From contig VFLF01000251.1 in assembly GCA_009885185.1 (NCBI GenBank), positions 1-8,398 on the forward strand: a stretch of DNA of 8,398 nt, written 5' to 3'. A program made the position numbers and the translations under genes. Below are positions 1,276 through 8,398 of this stretch, in pieces. How positions within the stretch are numbered: the first letter of the stretch is position 1; every line of letters starts with the position of its first letter. The notes under the pieces are model-generated. The model had not been told where the DNA came from. It did no database searches and was given only the letters and a program-made list of their open reading frames with translations. This DNA is from Nitrosomonadales bacterium. GTDB lineage: Bacteria > Pseudomonadota > Gammaproteobacteria > Burkholderiales > SG8-41.

Positions 1276-1321
1276 ACGGGATCAAGCGTGGCTGTTCGCA
1301 TGGGCTTAATGCTTTCGCACT

Positions 1322-1396
1322 TTAGCGCAGGCCGAAAAATCCCAAAATAGCGACGATGATGACGATGGCGCCGACGATATAAACGATGTTGTTCAT
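1322..1396 (-). CDS. 24-aa single-pass membrane peptide
   Basis: A minus-strand ATG at 1396-1394 opens a 24-codon ORF ending in TAA at 1324-1322. The peptide starts MNNIVYIVGA, continues with an almost wholly Ile/Val/Ala/Leu/Gly/Phe core, and ends GFFGLR, so it is one transmembrane helix with a basic C-terminal Arg. An AAAAGG ribosome binding site (complement of 1404-1409) lies 7 nt before the ATG. An ATG further upstream would give a 90-residue product, but its extra residues look non-coding. Very similar tiny hydrophobic peptides are common next to stress and envelope genes in beta- and gammaproteobacteria and are usually annotated as hypothetical. The function is unknown. The ORF is well supported for its size. 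Confidence 0.62.
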   Translation of the reverse strand: MNNIVYIVGAIVIIVAILGFFGLR

Positions 1397-1753
1397 GGGA
1401 TTACCTTTTGAGTGGTCTAATCGAGTAAAAAATAAAATCGCCTGTTTAAAGCGGTTCTCGGTACTTCGATTTGCACTGTAATCCGTCGTGCCCGATCGGT
1501 CTGTGCGCCAGCGCCCATAAAGCGTAACAGCGCTCAATAACCTGGCGTGCCTTGAGGCGTCGCTGGAGATACTTGGCGTCCGGCGCCGTCGCATTGTTCC
1601 GAAAAGGCCCTCGGGCGCGCTTCAGGATGTACGTCAGCGCACAGATTACGTTCTGCACGGAGAAAATAATGATTCACTCACGGTGCCGGGTGCGGCGGCG
1701 CGAGCGTCTCGCGCGGACGCGCAACCAGACAGTTCAGTCATGAAGCTGTGACA
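1397..1753. other. Gap between the divergent membrane peptide and CBS genes
   Basis: About 360 bp separate the minus-strand peptide gene from the plus-strand CBS gene, so it should carry divergent promoters. I see an AT-rich patch at 1426-1440 next to the peptide gene and another at 1662-1675 before the CBS gene. Neither gives a clear -35/-10 pair. Open frames across the gap show no recognisable family. Confidence 0.4.
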
Positions 1754-1760
1754 AAGGAGA
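1754..1760 (+). promoter_or_regulatory. Strong Shine-Dalgarno for the CBS gene
   Basis: AAGGAGA lies 6 nt before the ATG at 1767 and fixes that start. It is the strongest ribosome binding site in the five-gene run. The next three genes use weak TTG or GTG starts. Confidence 0.75.
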
Positions 1761-1766
1761 GTAGAC

Positions 1767-2186
1767 ATGCAACAACTCAAAGACTTGATGAGCGGTGATG
1801 TGAAGGTCATCAGTCCGGATATGACCATCGGGGAAGCTGCAAAAAAAATGCGCGACGGCGATTTCGGTATGCTGCCTGTCGGCGAAAATGACCGCATGAT
1901 CGGTACGATATCGGATCGCGACATCGTGATTCGTGCCGTGGCCGAAGGCAGAAACGTTGCCACCACGGTCCGTGATGTGATGTCCGACGGTATCGCCTGG
2001 GTGTACGAGGACGACTCGGTGGAACAGGCTGCGGCGATTATGGCCGAGCGCCAGGTGCGGCGCTTGCCGGTCGTCAATCGCGACAAGCGCCTGGTCGGCA
2101 TTGTGGCGCTGGGCGATTTTGCCGTTGAAAGTTCGGAGATCCAGCCGGCTGCCAAGGCCTTGTCGGAAATATCGAGACCCTCTTGA
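1767..2186 (+). CDS. CBS-domain pair (Bateman module) protein
   Basis: This 139-residue protein consists almost entirely of two CBS domains. CBS1 spans about residues 6-62 and contains TIGEAAKKMRDGDFGMLPV and GTISDRDIVIRA. CBS2 spans about residues 71-122 and contains SVEQAAAIMAERQVRRLPVV and LVGIVALGDFA. CBS pairs bind adenosine nucleotides such as AMP, ATP or SAM and act as regulatory modules; stand-alone versions of this size are common in proteobacteria and often stress-linked. No catalytic or DNA-binding domain is fused, so it presumably acts on a partner. The start is set by the AAGGAGA site just upstream. The stop (2184-2186) overlaps the TTG start of the following small gene, so the two are probably translationally coupled. 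It is the first gene of the co-directional run that ends at 4686. Confidence 0.93.
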   Translation: MQQLKDLMSGDVKVISPDMTIGEAAKKMRDGDFGMLPVGENDRMIGTISDRDIVIRAVAEGRNVATTVRDVMSDGIAWVYEDDSVEQAAAIMAERQVRRLPVVNRDKRLVGIVALGDFAVESSEIQPAAKALSEISRPS

Positions 2187-2377
2187 AACCCGGAAACAGC
2201 ACCGCCAAGACGCGTGTACCGCGCACGCCGCTGGACTCGCAACAACTTCCGTTTCATGTCCAGACAAACGCGAGGCCAGGTCGTCGAACCGTCCGCGAGA
2301 CGGAGCATCCGGTGACGGCGCTGCGGCAAACCAAGTGGCGTTCAGAACGAGCGAACAAAACGCAGGCCGCTATTTAA
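2183..2377 (+). CDS. 64-aa basic protein of unrecognised family, copy 1
   Basis: I do not recognise this family. The ORF starts with TTG at 2183, overlapping the CBS stop as TTGA, and ends with TAA at 2375-2377. Its product aligns without gaps over its whole length with the 64-aa product at 5241-5435: 33 of 64 residues are identical, including AKTR (8-11), TPLD (15-18), PGR (32-34), VRE (37-39), HPVTA (42-46) and RQT (48-50). Fourteen of the identical residues use different synonymous codons, which argues for selection on the protein. The TTG aligns exactly with the ATG of copy 2, and the 13 nt before it match at 11 positions, including a weak CGAG ribosome site. The protein is basic (about 13 Lys/Arg against 4 Asp/Glu), lacks Cys, and has no signal or membrane segment. 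A disordered or nucleic-acid- or partner-binding protein is possible but is inference. Confidence 0.72.
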   Translation: MKPGNSTAKTRVPRTPLDSQQLPFHVQTNARPGRRTVRETEHPVTALRQTKWRSERANKTQAAI

Positions 2378-2407
2378 TCACGCGACGCGCATGCGAGTGC
2401 AAGCGAC

Positions 2408-3133
2408 TTGACCTACTGCATCGGCGTATTACTCGACGAGGGATCGATTCTCGCGTCCGATTCACGCACGAACGCCGGCGTCGATAACTTTGCGAAGTTC
2501 TGCAAGATGACGGTATTCGAGCGTCGAGGCGACCGCGTCATCGTACTGTTGAGTTCCGGAAACCTTGCCGGAACACAGGCCGTTGTCAGTGTGCTGAACC
2601 AACGTTGCGCGGGCGGCGTGGATAATAATCTGTGGGGTGCCCAGACCATGTTCGATGCTGCGATGCTGGTAGCGGATGCAATGCGAGACATTGAGCGGCG
2701 CGACGGTGAATATATGCAGGAAAACGAGATCGGCTTCAACGCCTCGTTTATCATCGGCGGGCAGATTGCCGGCGAGGGATTGCGCCTGTTTCGCATCTAT
2801 GCAGAAGGCAATTTCATCGAGGCCGGCGTGGACACGCCGTACTTTCAGACCGGTGAAACCAAATACGGCAAGCCGGTCATCGACCGCGTGATTACGCGTT
2901 CTAGGCCCCTTGCGGAAGCCGTGAAGTGCGTACTGGTGTCTTTTGATTCGACGCTGCGCAGCAACCTGTCAGTCGGCATGCCGATAGACCTGATGTGTTA
3001 CGAGCGCGACAGCCTCGAAGTGCGGCGGCGCCGCCGGTTTGATGAAGGCGACGCCTATTTCACCGCGCTCAGTCTCGAATGGCGGGAAGGTTCGCGACAG
3101 GTGTTTCGTCATTTACCCGAGCTGCAATGGTGA
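2408..3133 (+). CDS. Anbu-type proteasome homologue (putative Ntn peptidase)
   Basis: This 241-residue protein has the pattern of Anbu, the bacterial ancestral beta-subunit relative of the 20S proteasome and HslV. It begins MTYCIGVLLDEG, so Met removal would expose Thr as the N-terminal nucleophile. Asp18 in LASDSRTNAGVD (Asp17 of the mature form) and Lys33 lie at or within one residue of the usual catalytic Asp17 and Lys33. LLSSGNLAGTQAVV and SFIIGGQ are also typical of the fold. The start is TTG. It is the only start codon after the in-frame stop at 2375, and it puts the nucleophilic Thr next to Met as the family requires. The upstream ribosome site is weak. Anbu subunits assemble into rings or open helical forms in the cytoplasm. 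Natural substrates are unsettled, and peptidase activity has been weak or absent in some reports. Its neighbours (an FGase-like protein 24 nt downstream, then a transglutaminase) fit known Anbu neighbourhoods. Confidence 0.92.
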   Translation: MTYCIGVLLDEGSILASDSRTNAGVDNFAKFCKMTVFERRGDRVIVLLSSGNLAGTQAVVSVLNQRCAGGVDNNLWGAQTMFDAAMLVADAMRDIERRDGEYMQENEIGFNASFIIGGQIAGEGLRLFRIYAEGNFIEAGVDTPYFQTGETKYGKPVIDRVITRSRPLAEAVKCVLVSFDSTLRSNLSVGMPIDLMCYERDSLEVRRRRRFDEGDAYFTALSLEWREGSRQVFRHLPELQW

Positions 3134-3157
3134 GCGGTCGTTGCGAACGTCGCGGTC

Positions 3158-3877
3158 GTGATCGACGCCTTTATCATCACCTGTGAGCACGGCGGCAATC
3201 GGATTCCCGCGCCTTTTCAACAGTGGTTTCGGGGCCGCCGCGCGTTGCTCAATTCCCATTGCGGCTATGATCCTGGTGCGCTGGTCATGGCTCAAGCGCT
3301 GGCCGCAGCCTTCGCGGCGCCGCTAGTGATGTCTACGGTTAGCCGGTTGCTCGTCGATCTCAATCGTTCACTCGGCCATAAGCAGCTTTTCTCGGCGGCA
3401 ACACGTCGGCTGCCAACCAAGATTCGTTCGGACATCATCGAACGGCACTATCGGCCCTATCGCGAAACGGTTGAACGCCTGGTGCGGCAATCGGCATCGC
3501 GCGGGCGTCGCGTGATTCACATTTCCTCGCACAGCTTTACGCCGGCGCTGGATGGCAAGGTGCGGATCGCCGATGTGGGTTTGCTTTACCACCCGAGCCG
3601 CCGCTACGAGAGCGAACTGTGCGCGCGCTGGAAGGCATCGCTCGCGGCGTTCCGTCCTGAACTCCGTGTGCGCCGCAACTACCCTTATGCAGGCAAAGGG
3701 GACGGGCTCACGTCGCACTTGCGCCTGCGCTTCGCGCCTGCCGCTTACGTCGGTGTTGAACTCGAAATTAATCAGGAAATCGTTCTGACCGCGGGCCGGC
3801 GCTGGACAGCGCTGCGCGGCGCGTTAATCGATTCGTTACGTGCGGTCTGTGCTATCCCACCCGGAGACGCTCCATGA
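3158..3877 (+). CDS. N-formylglutamate amidohydrolase-like protein
   Basis: This 239-residue protein matches the FGase family (PF05013), zinc-dependent hydrolases named after N-formylglutamate deformylation in histidine breakdown. Visible motifs are CEHGGNRIP (9-17), HCGYDPGA (34-41), DLNRS (67-71), HISSHSFTP (121-129), ADVGLLYHPSR (138-148), NYPYAGKGDGLTSH (174-187) and VELEINQE (200-207). The His and Glu residues in the first, fourth and last motifs are likely metal or catalytic ligands. The start is GTG at 3158, the only usable start after the in-frame stop at 3131-3133. The gene follows the Anbu gene by 24 nt and overlaps the transglutaminase gene by ATGA, so it is embedded in that operon. 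No histidine-utilisation genes are present, so the true substrate is more likely another amide or peptide than formylglutamate; that is inference. Confidence 0.88.
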   Translation: MIDAFIITCEHGGNRIPAPFQQWFRGRRALLNSHCGYDPGALVMAQALAAAFAAPLVMSTVSRLLVDLNRSLGHKQLFSAATRRLPTKIRSDIIERHYRPYRETVERLVRQSASRGRRVIHISSHSFTPALDGKVRIADVGLLYHPSRRYESELCARWKASLAAFRPELRVRRNYPYAGKGDGLTSHLRLRFAPAAYVGVELEINQEIVLTAGRRWTALRGALIDSLRAVCAIPPGDAP

Positions 3878-4686
3878 AAATTCGCGTCGGCTTTGACATG
3901 AGCTATGAGTGTCCGCAGTCCACTCCGATGATACTCAACGTCAACGTCCATTTTACACGCGTGTCCGACCTTGTTGGTTGTGACGACCTGATCGTGGACC
4001 CTCCGACACCGATGGCGGCCTATCGCGACAGCTTCGGAAACTGGTGTACGCGCATGGTTGCGGTGCAGGGCCGCACGCGCCTTAGCGCCGATGTGTTGGT
4101 GAACGACAGCGGCGCACCCGATGTGGTGGTGCCGCAAGCACGGCAGATCGCGGTGCCGGAGCTGCCGGAGGAAACGTTGTTGTTCCTGCTCGGCAGCCGC
4201 TATTGCGAAACCGACCGGCTATCCGAGGCCGCGTGGGATCTGTTCGCATCCGCGCCAACGGGATGGGGCCGCGTGCAGGCGATCTGCGACTTTGTACATA
4301 GACATATCACCTTCGGTTATGAGCACGCGCGCATGACACGGACCGCGCTGGAAGCCTTTCACGACAAGACCGGCGTGTGTCGCGACTATGCGCACCTCGC
4401 CGTTGCCTTCTGCAGGTGCATGAACATCCCTGCCCGTTATTGCACCGGCTACCTGGGTGATATCGGCACACCGCCGCCGTACGGCACGATGGATTTCGCC
4501 GCCTGGTTCGAAGCTTTCCTCGAGGGCCGTTGGTACACCGTCGATGCCCGCAACAACACGCCGCGCATTGGCAGGGTGTTGATCGCGCGCGGGCGCGATG
4601 CCGCGGACGTCGCGATCAGCAGTACGTTCGGGCCCAACACATTGACGAGTTTCAGGGTATGGGCCGACGAAGTACGCGCCGCTTGA
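3874..4686 (+). CDS. Transglutaminase-like cysteine protein, Anbu-associated
   Basis: This 270-residue protein has an N-terminal beta-rich region (about 1-90, typical of bacterial transglutaminase-like proteins) and a papain-like transglutaminase core (about 105-230). The catalytic Cys169 sits in KTGVCRDYAHLAVAFC, followed by MNIPARYCTGYLGD. Asp224 lies in RWYTVDARNN. Where the catalytic His is normally found (H-AWFE, about 40 residues after Cys) this protein has Ala209 in MDFAAWFEAFL. I recall that relatives in this subfamily can carry a non-His residue there, so the change may be shared rather than damage. The tail PRIGRVLIARGRDAADVA is typical of the Anbu-linked subfamily. The ATG overlaps the FGase stop by 4 nt and has GGAG (3863-3866) 7 nt upstream. 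Such proteins may act as peptidases or amide-forming enzymes. It appears to be the last gene of this operon. Confidence 0.9.
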   Translation: MKIRVGFDMSYECPQSTPMILNVNVHFTRVSDLVGCDDLIVDPPTPMAAYRDSFGNWCTRMVAVQGRTRLSADVLVNDSGAPDVVVPQARQIAVPELPEETLLFLLGSRYCETDRLSEAAWDLFASAPTGWGRVQAICDFVHRHITFGYEHARMTRTALEAFHDKTGVCRDYAHLAVAFCRCMNIPARYCTGYLGDIGTPPPYGTMDFAAWFEAFLEGRWYTVDARNNTPRIGRVLIARGRDAADVAISSTFGPNTLTSFRVWADEVRAA

Positions 4687-5240
4687 GCTATCGGCGTCGC
4701 GTGGTCGCGATTGTCGTATCGGCCAGCGGTTAGAGTACAGAGCGCTTTAATACGAGAGTGAATGCTCGCGCGCAGGCCGGGTTTCGCTGTTGTTTTGTGG
4801 GCGGGCTGTGAGGGATGCGGTGCGTCCGCCGCACCAGCGGCCAGCGCTTCCATGGACTCCACGGATAGGCACTGCTGCGTGAACTCCAATGATTTTTATA
4901 TAAAACCGATTTAAAAACAGATACTTACACAAAATAGACTATTTCTCGCCAGAAAAGTGTGACTTCGCCCCTTGGTTGTCACTGCACGTGCGCGCTTAAA
5001 GTTTTCTGGGTTGCGGCAGAGATTCCATGAGCATTGCTTGTGCGGCAGCGAACAGACCGCTCCGCGATCGGAGTCGATAGTTATCGGGACGTCAGGAAGC
5101 AGTCGTTCAAAAAAAGTGACGTGCGTCCAGGTTACAGGGGCGCGTGCGAATACGAATACGAATGCGACTGCCACAAATACCTTTAAATCGTGGCGCCCAT
5201 TAAATGTGCCAACCAACGTTCGTAAACTATCGAGGCCATC
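4687..5240. other. Intergenic region of about 550 bp, no supported gene
   Basis: No open frame here has a recognisable motif or good ribosome site. It contains a GC hairpin (GGTGCG 4819-4824 with CGCACC 4830-4835, 5-nt loop, no T-tract) that could end the upstream operon, an AT-rich island at about 4889-4947, and a threefold hexamer run CGAATA-CGAATA-CGAATG at 5147-5164. The last 13 nt (5228-5240) resemble the leader of the first 64-aa gene. Confidence 0.55.
4889..4947. promoter_or_regulatory. AT-rich island with two palindromes, candidate promoter/operator
   Basis: In otherwise GC-rich DNA this stretch holds a perfect 12-bp palindrome TTTTATATAAAA (4894-4905) and a perfect inverted repeat AAATAG-A-CTATTT (4932-4944). 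Both shapes suit a regulator site or a promoter melting region. No clear -35/-10 pair with 17-bp spacing was found. It lies about 300 bp before the next gene, so the assignment is weak. Confidence 0.3.
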
Positions 5241-5435
5241 ATGAAACAACCCAAAATCCCCGCCAAAACACGTGCGCTGCAAACCCCACTGGATTTGCAT
5301 CGATTTCCGTTGAGTGCGCAGACTGATGCGACGCCCGGTCGCGAAGCGGTGCGCGAGTTGGCGCATCCAGTGACGGCGCCGCGCCAAACGCAGCGTCGTG
5401 CGGGTAAAGCGAAAAAGAGCCAGTCGGATATCTGA
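5241..5435 (+). CDS. 64-aa basic protein of unrecognised family, copy 2
   Basis: This is the paralogue of the gene at 2183-2377, with the same length of 64 residues and 33 identities in an ungapped alignment. The shared core runs TPLD----P---QT-A-PGR--VRE--HPVTA-RQT (residues 15-50). It starts with ATG and has GAGG 5 nt upstream, a clearer start than copy 1, and ends with TGA at 5433-5435. It has about 13 Lys/Arg against 5 Asp/Glu, no Cys, and no membrane or signal segment; its C-terminus is Lys/Arg/Gln/Ser-rich and probably disordered. macA starts 65 nt downstream on the same strand with no clear terminator between, so co-transcription with macAB is plausible. A longer frame ending at 5244 overlaps its start but looks non-coding. 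The function is unknown. Confidence 0.78.
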   Translation: MKQPKIPAKTRALQTPLDLHRFPLSAQTDATPGREAVRELAHPVTAPRQTQRRAGKAKKSQSDI

Positions 5436-5500
5436 TCGTGCTGCATGTGTGCGCAGGCAAAGCCGCCTACACTGGCTTGCGCCACTGAGCTAATGCCAAC

Positions 5501-6878
5501 GTGACCACGGTTCCGCCTACTCCAGCGGGCGTAGCGGAGCAAGGCGCTGCCCCTCGGCCCGCGCCTGCCCCTACCCCTACCCCTGCGCGAGCGCGCGTGC
5601 CGCAAGTCGGTCGTTGGGCGCTGATTATTGCCTTGTGCGGCTTGCTGGTCGGCGGCAGCTACTACGCATTGCGGGCGTGTTTTCGTCAGGACAACCCCGC
5701 CGACAGCTTCATCACGGCGGTGGCGCAGCGTGGCAATCTGGAAGATACCGTCACGGCGACCGGCACGCTCCAGCCCAAGGAATTCGTCGACGTCGGCACG
5801 CAAGTCTCCGGGCAGGTGAAAAAGCTGCTGGTCGACGTGGGCGACGTGGTCAAGGCTGCGCAACTGCTCGCCGAGATCGACCCTTCGGTTTATCAGGCCA
5901 AGGTGGATGGTGATCGTGCGCAGATGCTCAACCAGCGGGCAACGCTTGCTGACCGGGAAGCTCAGGTAGCACTCGCCCAACTTCAGTTTACGCGGCAAAA
6001 AAATCTTGACCGCGAGAATGCCACCACCACCGAAGCCGTGCAAAGCGCCGAGGCGACGCAGCAGTCCGCCATGGCGCAGGCCGACGCCATTCGCGCGCAG
6101 ATCAAGCAGACCGAATCGACCCTGCGCGGCGACGAGGCCAATCTGGGCTATACCAAAATCCATGCGCCGATTGCGGGCACCGTGGTGTCGCAGGCGGCAA
6201 AGCTGGGGCAAACCTTGAATGCCAATCAGCAGGCGCCGGTGGTGATGCGCATCGCGAATCTGGCGACGATGACGGTGCAGGCGCAGGTGTCGGAGGCGGA
6301 TGTCCCCAAGCTCCACGTCGGGATGGACGTTTACTTCACCACGCTGGGCGGCAACAACCGTCGTTATTACAGCAAGCTGCGCCAGATACCGCCCACGCCC
6401 ACGGTGGTGAACAATGTCGTGCTCTACGATGCGTTGTTCGATGTGGAGAATCCGAAGCAGGCGCTGATGACCCAGATGACGGCGCAAGTATTCTTCGTGG
6501 TGTCGAGTGCGCGCAACGCGGTGCTGGTGCCGTTGGCTGCGCTGCACCCGGTCGCGGCGGAGAGCCCGCCGCGTGCAGCTGACGCAGTATCCGGGAAGAG
6601 CGCAGGTGGTGCGCGCAAAGGAGGCGGCGATACGCGCAGTCAAATTTGGCGACGGACGCGCGCGGGTGAGCGTGGTTGGCGTCGATGGCAAGGTGGTGGA
6701 GCGTGAAGTCAAAGTCGGCGTGATGAACCGGGTGTCGGCGCAAATCTTGTCCGGTATCGAACCCGGCGACAAGGTAGTGATCGGCAACAAGACACCAGCG
6801 GCTGCCGTGCCGGCGAAGAGCACCAGCGCGCTGGTGCCGAATGCGCAGAATACACAGAAGGGCGGCGGCCGCCCGTGA
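5501..6878 (+). CDS. macA: MacA-type periplasmic adaptor subunit, apparent frameshift near the 3' end
   Basis: MacA links the inner-membrane ABC transporter MacB to a TolC-type outer-membrane channel for export of macrolides, peptides or siderophores. The GTG at 5501 is the only start after an in-frame stop at 5486. A Pro/Ala-rich cytoplasmic leader (1-37) precedes one membrane helix (about 39-58). Next come the first lipoyl half (TGTLQPKEFVDVGTQVSGQV), a Gln/Ala-rich coiled-coil hairpin (about 136-215), the second lipoyl half (GYTKIHAPIAGTVVSQAAKL), and beta-barrel and membrane-proximal regions up to VLVPLAALHP (341-350). The original frame then loses family resemblance and stops at 6706. 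The family sequence resumes one frame over as REVKVGVMNRVSAQILSG and GDKVVIGN, ending at TGA 6876-6878. The shift (net +1) lies somewhere in 6545-6660. It may be a real mutation or a sequencing error. The stop overlaps the macB GTG by 4 nt. Confidence 0.85.
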
Positions 6879-8398
6879 GATCCGATGCGGCGAGCACGGT
6901 GACCGGCCAGCCACTGATTGAACTGGTGGACGTGACCAAGACCTACCACACCGGGGAGCTGGATAGAAGTGCTGCACGGTGTCAGCCTGAAAATTTACGC
7001 CGGGGAGTTTCTGGCGATCATGGGCGCCTCCGGATCGGGCAAGTCCACGCTCATGAACATGATCGGCTGCCTGGACCGGCCCACCAGCGGCACCTACCGC
7101 TTCATGGGTGAAGATGTATCGGGCTTCGAGCGCGACGAGTTGGCACGCTTGCGGCGCGAGGCGTTCGGTTTCGTGTTTCAAAGCTACAACCTGATCGGCA
7201 CAGTGTCTGCGCTGGAGAACGTCGAGGTGCCGGCAGTGTATTCAGGAATGCCGCCGGCCGAACGCGATCGTCGTGCAAAAGAGCTGCTCGGCTCACTGGG
7301 CTTGGGTGACCGCCTCGAGCACCGGCCCAGCCAGCTTTCCGGCGGGCAGCAACAGCGCGTGTCGATTGCACGCGCGCTGATGAATGGCGGCCGCATTGTG
7401 CTGGCCGACGAACCCACCGGTGCGCTCGATAGCAAGAGCGGTGTCGAGGTGATGGCGCTGTTGCAGGATTTGTCGCGCCGTGGACACACCGTGATTCTTA
7501 TTACCCATGCCCAAGAGATTGCCGCGGCGGCGCAGCGCATCATCGAAATCCGGGATGGCTCCATCGTGAGCGATCCCGGCCCGCAACTGTCAGTCGGATC
7601 ACCGGCGCCGGAAATCAAGCAGTCCGCGCACGAAGGCGGCGCGTCCTTTGTGGGCGGTGCGTTCGAAGCGGCAAAGACCGCGGTTCGAGCGCTGCGCGCT
7701 AATCTTTTTCGCACCTCGCTGACGCTGCTGGGTATTGTGATCGGCGTGGCGTCGGTGATAGCGATGCTCGCCATCGGCGACGGCGCCAAGCAGTTGGTGC
7801 TCGACCGCATCAGTGCCATGGGTACGAATTTGCTGCTGATCCGTCCCGGCCCGCCTACCCGCAGAGGCGTGGGCGGTGCAGTGGCATCACTGGTGCCGGA
7901 GGATGCGGAGATGATTGCCGCGCTGCCGAACGTGCTGGCGGCGGTGCCTGAATTGGGTGGGAATGTGACAGCGCGCTTTGGGAATTCCGACTATCAGACG
8001 CAGGCGACGGGAACCTCCGCGACGTTTCCGGTGGCGCGCAACTGGGCGGTGAGCAGGGGCGTATTTTTTTCCACGGCGGATGTCACAAGCTATACCTCGG
8101 TGGTGGTGCTGGGCCAGACTGTTGCCGACAATCTTTTTCAAAAAGGCGTTGATCCCGTCGGGCAATACATCGTGCTGAACAATGTCATGTTTCAGGTGAT
8201 CGGCCTGATGGCGGTGCGCGGGGCGTCACCGCAGGGGCAGGATCAGGACGACGTGGTGTTGGTGCCGTTGACGACAGGCGGCCTGCGCCTGTTCGGCCAG
8301 CGCTTTTTGCGCAACATTACCGTGGCAGTGGACGATGTGGAACGCATTGATGAAACGCAGGCTGCAGTGACGGCGTTGTTGCAATCACGCCATCAAAC
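6875..8398 (+). CDS. macB: MacB-type ABC transporter, frameshifted near its start and cut by the window end
   Basis: MacB fuses an ABC ATPase to a four-helix membrane domain with a large periplasmic domain and drives MacA/TolC export by mechanotransmission. GTG at 6875 begins a family-like N-terminus, [18 protein letters not shown]. At about 6965 the frame breaks, and [15 protein letters not shown] continues one frame over from 6966. A partial codon at the break suggests loss of 2 nt. Beyond it the frame is open to the window end (about 477 codons). It contains Walker [10 protein letters not shown], signature [10 protein letters not shown], Walker [13 protein letters not shown], the H-loop in ILITHA, the first membrane helix around [21 protein letters not shown], and part of the periplasmic domain. 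About 140 C-terminal residues, including the remaining helices, would lie beyond the window. If the shift is real, only a GTG at 6969 could restart, giving a product without its first strand. The overlap with macA indicates one operon. Confidence 0.87.

Follow-up and report, generated by a model that had tools for sequence, protein, structure and literature searches.

In a contig of a Nitrosomonadales bacterium (assembly GCA_009885185.1, contig VFLF01000251.1), I found that two genes of one family encode basic proteins of 64 amino acid residues. The stretch analysed has 8,398 nucleotides and is called the window below. The first gene, S1 (2183..2377, forward strand), has a TTG start codon overlapping the stop codon of a gene for a CBS-pair protein and is the diverged copy. 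The second gene, S2 (5241..5435, forward strand), starts with ATG and is the canonical copy. Judging from their sequences, the two are paralogues, and the undescribed small basic family to which they belong is under purifying selection. The proteins may be disordered basic binding peptides, that is, accessory peptides of a CBS-linked stress module, a plausible reading to which I give somewhat less than an even chance.

The original prediction, made from the DNA letters, had the coordinates, the 64-residue length, and the frame of both genes right. Its gapless identity of 33 of 64 residues stands when the TTG of S1 is read as Met and becomes 32 of 64 by literal translation, while its 14 identical residues encoded by different codons were counted again exactly. 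The two genes share 129 of 192 nucleotides, with 50, 45, and 34 identities of 64 at the first, second, and third codon positions, which is the pattern of a conserved coding frame. When the residues of S2 were shuffled 10,000 times, the mean number of identities to S1 was 5.06 and the maximum was 14. Both proteins have 13 Lys and Arg residues, and the Asp and Glu residues number four in S1 and five in S2. The ratio of nonsynonymous to synonymous substitutions per site (dN/dS) of the pair is 0.43 by NG86 or 0.28 by YN00, with a dS of 0.8-1.1. For four genes of the family, dN/dS ranges from 0.18 to 0.43 over six pairs (NG86) and from 0.28 to 0.78 over four pairs (YN00), values that are rough because the pairwise dS of 0.6-2.5 is near saturation. 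This ratio, which had been suggested as a check, is below 1 in every computed pair. Thus, both the codon pattern and dN/dS support the protein-level selection proposed at the outset.

Relatives of the two proteins exist beyond the window, as revealed by the homologue search that had also been suggested. A first protein search gave 25 proteins at an expect value (E) of 10 or less (of 26 candidates, S2 included); S2 is among the 25 database proteins and S1 is not. A further search gave 138 proteins at E<=10 (of 4495 candidates), and the widest iterated search gave 227 at E<=1 (of 1632 candidates); the best 120 of each of these two were used. The resulting alignment has 186 rows: two come from loci, and 184 are proteins that were listed or lie in the window, all but one of 185. 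The protein left out of the counts, P0026, may come from an assembly chimera. By a motif rule of my own, 25 rows were assigned to subfamily A (the window type), 130 to B, and 31 to C. The three subfamilies have a common core, T-x2-R-x2-VR...PRQ(S/T)-x-R-x2-ER. Among the 186 rows, the conserved positions are T31 (172), R34 (185), V37 (180), R38 (186), P47 (184), R48 (184), Q49 (172, with Glu in 13), R52 (182), and E55 (173). S2 matches the core except for Gly and Lys at positions 55-56, and S1 matches most of it, with Arg at 31, Leu at 47, and Trp at 52 instead. The median length is 63 residues and the median net charge is +8; the charge is positive in all rows, ranging from 4 to 17. The organism names among the listed relatives are Hydrogenophaga, Burkholderiales, Betaproteobacteria, and Pseudomonadota, most entries being nameless, and the family is apparently betaproteobacterial.

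The original prediction could not place the family, and the library searches agree, since no characterised family was matched. Neither S1 nor S2 has a Pfam or PHROG match at E<=1. In NCBIfam, S1 has one match far below the cut-off (E 0.056) and S2 has none, and a profile of 50 family members matches no chain of the PDB at E<=1. Two odd fusions were seen among the relatives. In P0026, on a contig of 703 nucleotides, the reading frame passes from the start of the small protein into the latter half of a CBS protein at a KVR(E/D)V-like word, which is either a chimera or a real recombination. In P0034, on a contig of 1134 nucleotides, a protein of 119 residues consists of an HH/AA-rich small protein joined to a member of the small basic family; no Pfam family scores above the cut-off for it, and NCBIfam gives no match at E<=0.01.

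The two copies differ greatly in how well they keep the subfamily consensus. At 34 conserved columns of subfamily A, S1 departs at 11, the most of the 25 rows, whereas P0016 and P0021 depart at six each, P0032 at five, and S2 at none. The Arg, Leu, and Trp residues of S1 mentioned above are found in S1 alone among the 186 rows, and its end branch (0.43) is the longest in a tree of 49 rows. S1 may therefore be a decaying duplicate kept open by the overlap or by chance, with S2 alone being functional, and its absence from the 25 database proteins that include S2 would fit this. I consider such decay distinctly unlikely, since the frame of S1 is intact, its dN/dS against S2 is 0.28-0.43, and it has a partner in the tree. 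Although built on few columns, the tree groups S1 with P0032 (92/93) and S2 with P0003 (99/85), which is 88% identical to S2. P0032, seen only as a protein, starts with Leu at the start position of S1, as the only other row of the 186 to do so; this would be expected of the literal translation of a TTG-started gene.

Because S1 is nearest to P0032 and S2 to P0003, the duplication is probably not recent. In a tree of 31 rows, a recent duplication making S1 and S2 sisters is 11 log-likelihood units worse and is disfavoured without being rejected (approximately unbiased test, p 0.15), while grouping S1, P0032, P0016, and P0021 in a single clade is equally good (p 0.517). The original prediction was silent both on the Anbu-linked S1 being the diverged copy and on each copy having a closer relative elsewhere. 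The likeness of the two genes extends about 15 nucleotides 5′ of the starts, where 12 of 15 are identical. Over 18 nucleotides the count is 13 identities, a level that no part of the window other than the S1 and S2 starts reaches (two of 8380 positions), and the frames upstream of both genes end in SRPS and a stop codon. The stretch before and over the S2 start (5226..5244, forward strand) resembles the 3′ end of the CBS gene and may be either a duplication scar or a shared ribosome-binding region. As for a CBS remnant 5′ of S2, blastn gave short and weak matches only, the best having E 0.021 over 19 nucleotides.

Which genes accompany the family? In the window, the CBS-pair protein (1767..2186, forward strand, 139 residues, Pfam CBS 1.7e-28) overlaps S1 by 4 nucleotides, and S1 is followed after 30 nucleotides by a gene for the proteasome-like peptidase Anbu (2408..3133, forward strand). 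The nearest PDB entry to the CBS protein is 9z6r (8.9e-26), and Rv2626c (Hrp1; 1xkf) follows at 3.8e-19. Anbu has a TTG start codon followed by Thr, and its identity is confirmed by matches to known Anbu structures, 5loy (1.7e-90) and 5nyj (9.4e-76), the Pfam Proteasome match being below the cut-off. The coupling of S1 to CBS and Anbu genes, as originally predicted, is thus supported in the window. The same order, CBS - small protein - Anbu with the start/stop overlap, occurs in locus L001, from a Betaproteobacteria metagenome-assembled genome. This genome has one copy by the first profile, of 26 rows, and a wider profile adds a distant copy of subfamily C. In locus L104 of genome G499, the same CBS gene order was found, with a CBS protein 79-80% identical to that of the window, a gap of 128 nucleotides, the small protein, and then an FtsH-like AAA+/M41 protease, which is far below the FtsH equivalog cut-off. 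The 128 nucleotides from the CBS stop to the small-protein start (L104:2962-3089) look by eye like a dispersed palindromic repeat. In genome G667, the small protein comes after a MacB-like gene; downstream of it are a frame that looks UspA-like by eye and a gene for a P-type cation ATPase.

In total, five loci of subfamilies A and B were compared, including both window loci. The CBS gene lies directly upstream in three (S1, L001, and L104), where the gene after the small protein is Anbu (two) or the FtsH-like protease (one). A protease or peptidase is thus next downstream in three of the five, and the other two have a MacAB-type neighbour. When neighbours were tabulated, as had been suggested, the Anbu linkage was seen again, but it is the CBS gene, not Anbu, that is the more recurrent neighbour.

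The position just 5′ of a proteasome homologue is reminiscent of Pup, which is an acidic, disordered protein of about 64 residues. Compartmental proteases may use the small protein as a tag or adaptor or degrade it as a substrate, with S1 serving Anbu and its G499 relative the FtsH-like protease; in this it would resemble Pup or a degradation adaptor. The shared length, the probable disorder, the gene position in the window and L001, the downstream protease or peptidase genes, and a transglutaminase gene in the window operon are consistent with this, and passages of PMC6376114 mention proposals of a protein-tagging role for Anbu operons. A more specific version, in which a Pup-like but unrelated tag or adaptor under a CBS sensor partner would deliver targets to Anbu here and to the FtsH-like protease elsewhere, deserves very little credence. 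The wider idea is also quite improbable. The family is basic, none of the 186 rows ends in GGE or GGQ, and only 13 have Glu at position 49. Pfam contains a Pup profile, and S1, S2, and nine relatives do not match it at E<=1. Both Anbu-linked members, S1 and P0016, rank among the most diverged of subfamily A, and three of the five A/B loci and all six C loci are not beside Anbu. I analysed the best 80 of 283 Anbu relatives, with at least 700 nucleotides upstream covered in 78 of the 80 loci. Only L001 has the small protein, and only L001 has a match to the window CBS protein within 2 kb of Anbu. The idea of a general Anbu component is rejected on these 80 loci. Attractive as it is for Anbu, the Pup-like reading agrees neither with the Pup sequence tests nor with how the family is distributed over Anbu loci, as far as sequences can tell. 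The Mycobacterium Anbu loci within these 80 also lack the small protein, and the likeness to Rv2626c belongs to the coupled CBS protein, not to the small protein.

Known Anbu operons, in the parts of PMC5666114 and PMC6376114 that describe them, have Anbu, transglutaminase, ATP-grasp, and alpha-E genes. The window likewise has Anbu and a transglutaminase-like gene (3874..4686, forward strand, PF01841 6.3e-19). It differs in having an N-formylglutamate amidohydrolase-like gene (3158..3877, forward strand, PF05013 7.2e-25), in that a scan of nine window proteins revealed neither ATP-grasp nor alpha-E, and in adding the CBS and small-protein genes. Among the 80 loci, an amidohydrolase-like gene of this type lies downstream of Anbu in 38, and a transglutaminase-like gene lies downstream in 57 and upstream in 11; L001 has no transglutaminase within its 12.7 kb, which also speaks against tagging.

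The distribution of the family looks patchy. The first profile found it in three of eight genomes at E<=1, only G001 being convincing, at E<=0.01 in three genomes from a set of 100 G001 relatives (two marginal), and in one of 399 genomes of the order. The wider profile found three of the 399, seven of the 100 (the G075 match contains a stop and G064 is weak), two of 37 genomes with Anbu loci, two of 80 G499 relatives (one being G075), one of two genomes in the genus of G667, and the single genome in the genus of G499. Searches with single proteins identified one and the same pair of genomes, both among the 399 and among 275 in the family. These genome sets overlap, and the profile scans of the 399 scored at most 15 candidates per genome, so misses are possible. 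A phage or plasmid origin was considered and rejected: no relatives were found in viral contigs (P0003 as query), phages (P0067), or plasmids (P0112), and S2 gave five plasmid records, all with E 0.6 or worse.

An AlphaFold2 model from 50 rows is of low confidence and mostly unstructured (predicted local distance difference test 67, predicted template modelling score 0.25), with a sole helix at 34-41, and the small proteins are probably disordered in the cell. The "small binding or adaptor protein" of the original prediction is a putative role that fits such a model and the basic, Pro-rich chain. The working part is likely a short linear element, the helix around 34-41 (R-x2-VR) and the arginine-rich tail (PRQ[S/T]-x-R-x2-ER). 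S1 would be made by translational coupling in step with the Hrp1-like CBS-pair protein. The small protein would bind an acidic partner, which may be RNA or DNA, a stress protein encoded nearby, or the CBS protein itself. This binding may let the response of the CBS protein act on protein quality control or transport. The company of the family is of a stress type: the Rv2626c-like CBS protein, BON domains in the window, the FtsH-like protease, and the P-type ATPase and UspA-like frame in G667.

The family may instead be a general basic stress peptide binding RNA, ribosomes, or the nucleoid, with the CBS link being co-regulation only. KGG/YciG and Sra-type proteins are small basic stress proteins, and the family shares their short length, basic nature, and stress-gene neighbours, although neither S1 nor S2 matches a Pfam family at E<=1 or comes near an NCBIfam cut-off. 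The positive charge of every row, the conserved Arg-rich tail, and the unrelated contexts of subfamily C speak for this. I regard it as somewhat unlikely, since the CBS adjacency recurs in two subfamilies and the conservation of E55 and P47 points to a specific motif rather than to plain charge. Several points weigh against the binding peptide of a CBS-linked module too. The comparison covers only five A/B loci, and this small number is the main weakness. CBS is absent at two of them, and none of the six subfamily-C loci matches the window CBS, Anbu, or MacB; therefore, by gene order, the family can do without a CBS partner. A second CBS gene of G499, closer to that of the window (86% identical), has no small protein within the 12 kb analysed. 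Nor does the small protein accompany the CBS relatives of five further genomes (L120-L124), a lone match in L121 (E 0.71) not being credible. Moreover, a model of low confidence is no proof of disorder, and S1 could be decaying.

Other features of the window were also recorded. A macA-like gene for a periplasmic adaptor (5501..6878, forward strand) follows S2 after 65 nucleotides on the same strand. Its frame is interrupted, the MacA model covering residues 62-349 of a 401-residue frame and an apparent C-terminal part lying in another frame by eye. The macB-like ABC transporter gene (6875..8398, forward strand) has its first part in another frame, by eye, and runs off the window. The apparent interruption of both frames may reflect real decay or sequencing error. 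At 1-624 are three BON-domain units with a spacing of 255 nucleotides, in which a stretch of 99 nucleotides is 77% and 86% identical to that of the first unit. A tiny hydrophobic peptide of 24 residues (MNNIVYIVG...FFGLR; 1322-1396, reverse strand) is encoded divergently from CBS. L001, L106, and L048 have peptides of the same type: in L001 the peptide lies upstream of CBS, in L106 it immediately precedes a small protein of subfamily C, and in L048 it lies about 4.6 kb away from Anbu.

As for regulatory signals, a structured RNA was rejected, with no Rfam match at the gathering score. Six FNR-like sites with at most two mismatches were found in the window, against 1.2 expected from mononucleotide shuffles. 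One is inside S2; none is just upstream of CBS or S2, or in the scanned parts of L001, L104, L119, and L106. L105 has three such sites (one with one mismatch) and two sigma-54-like sites with one mismatch. Neither FNR-type nor sigma-54 control was adopted. From 1300 to 5600, there are no sigma-70 promoters against 1.5 expected and two terminators against 5.2.

The family is modelled by none of the searched profile libraries, and its TTG-started copy S1 is missing from the searched protein collection. No paper combining Anbu with the CBS domain was found, nor one joining four of CBS domain, FtsH, small basic protein, operon, and betaproteobacteria, in a search that left most subscription literature outside; the term CBS does not occur in the main texts of PMC5666114 and PMC6376114. 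Passages of PMC6376114 state that proteasome test peptides were not cleaved by Anbu and that no stable complex formed with the other operon proteins, and PMC5666114, in the part concerned, describes it as a key task to identify which physiological substrates and interactors Anbu has. Should a CBS-controlled, Pup-like adaptor prove true, it would be the interactor still missing according to these Anbu papers. Encoded immediately 5′ of Anbu, with a start that overlaps a CBS sensor gene, the conserved basic peptide is, at a modest prior, a concrete candidate for an Anbu interactor.

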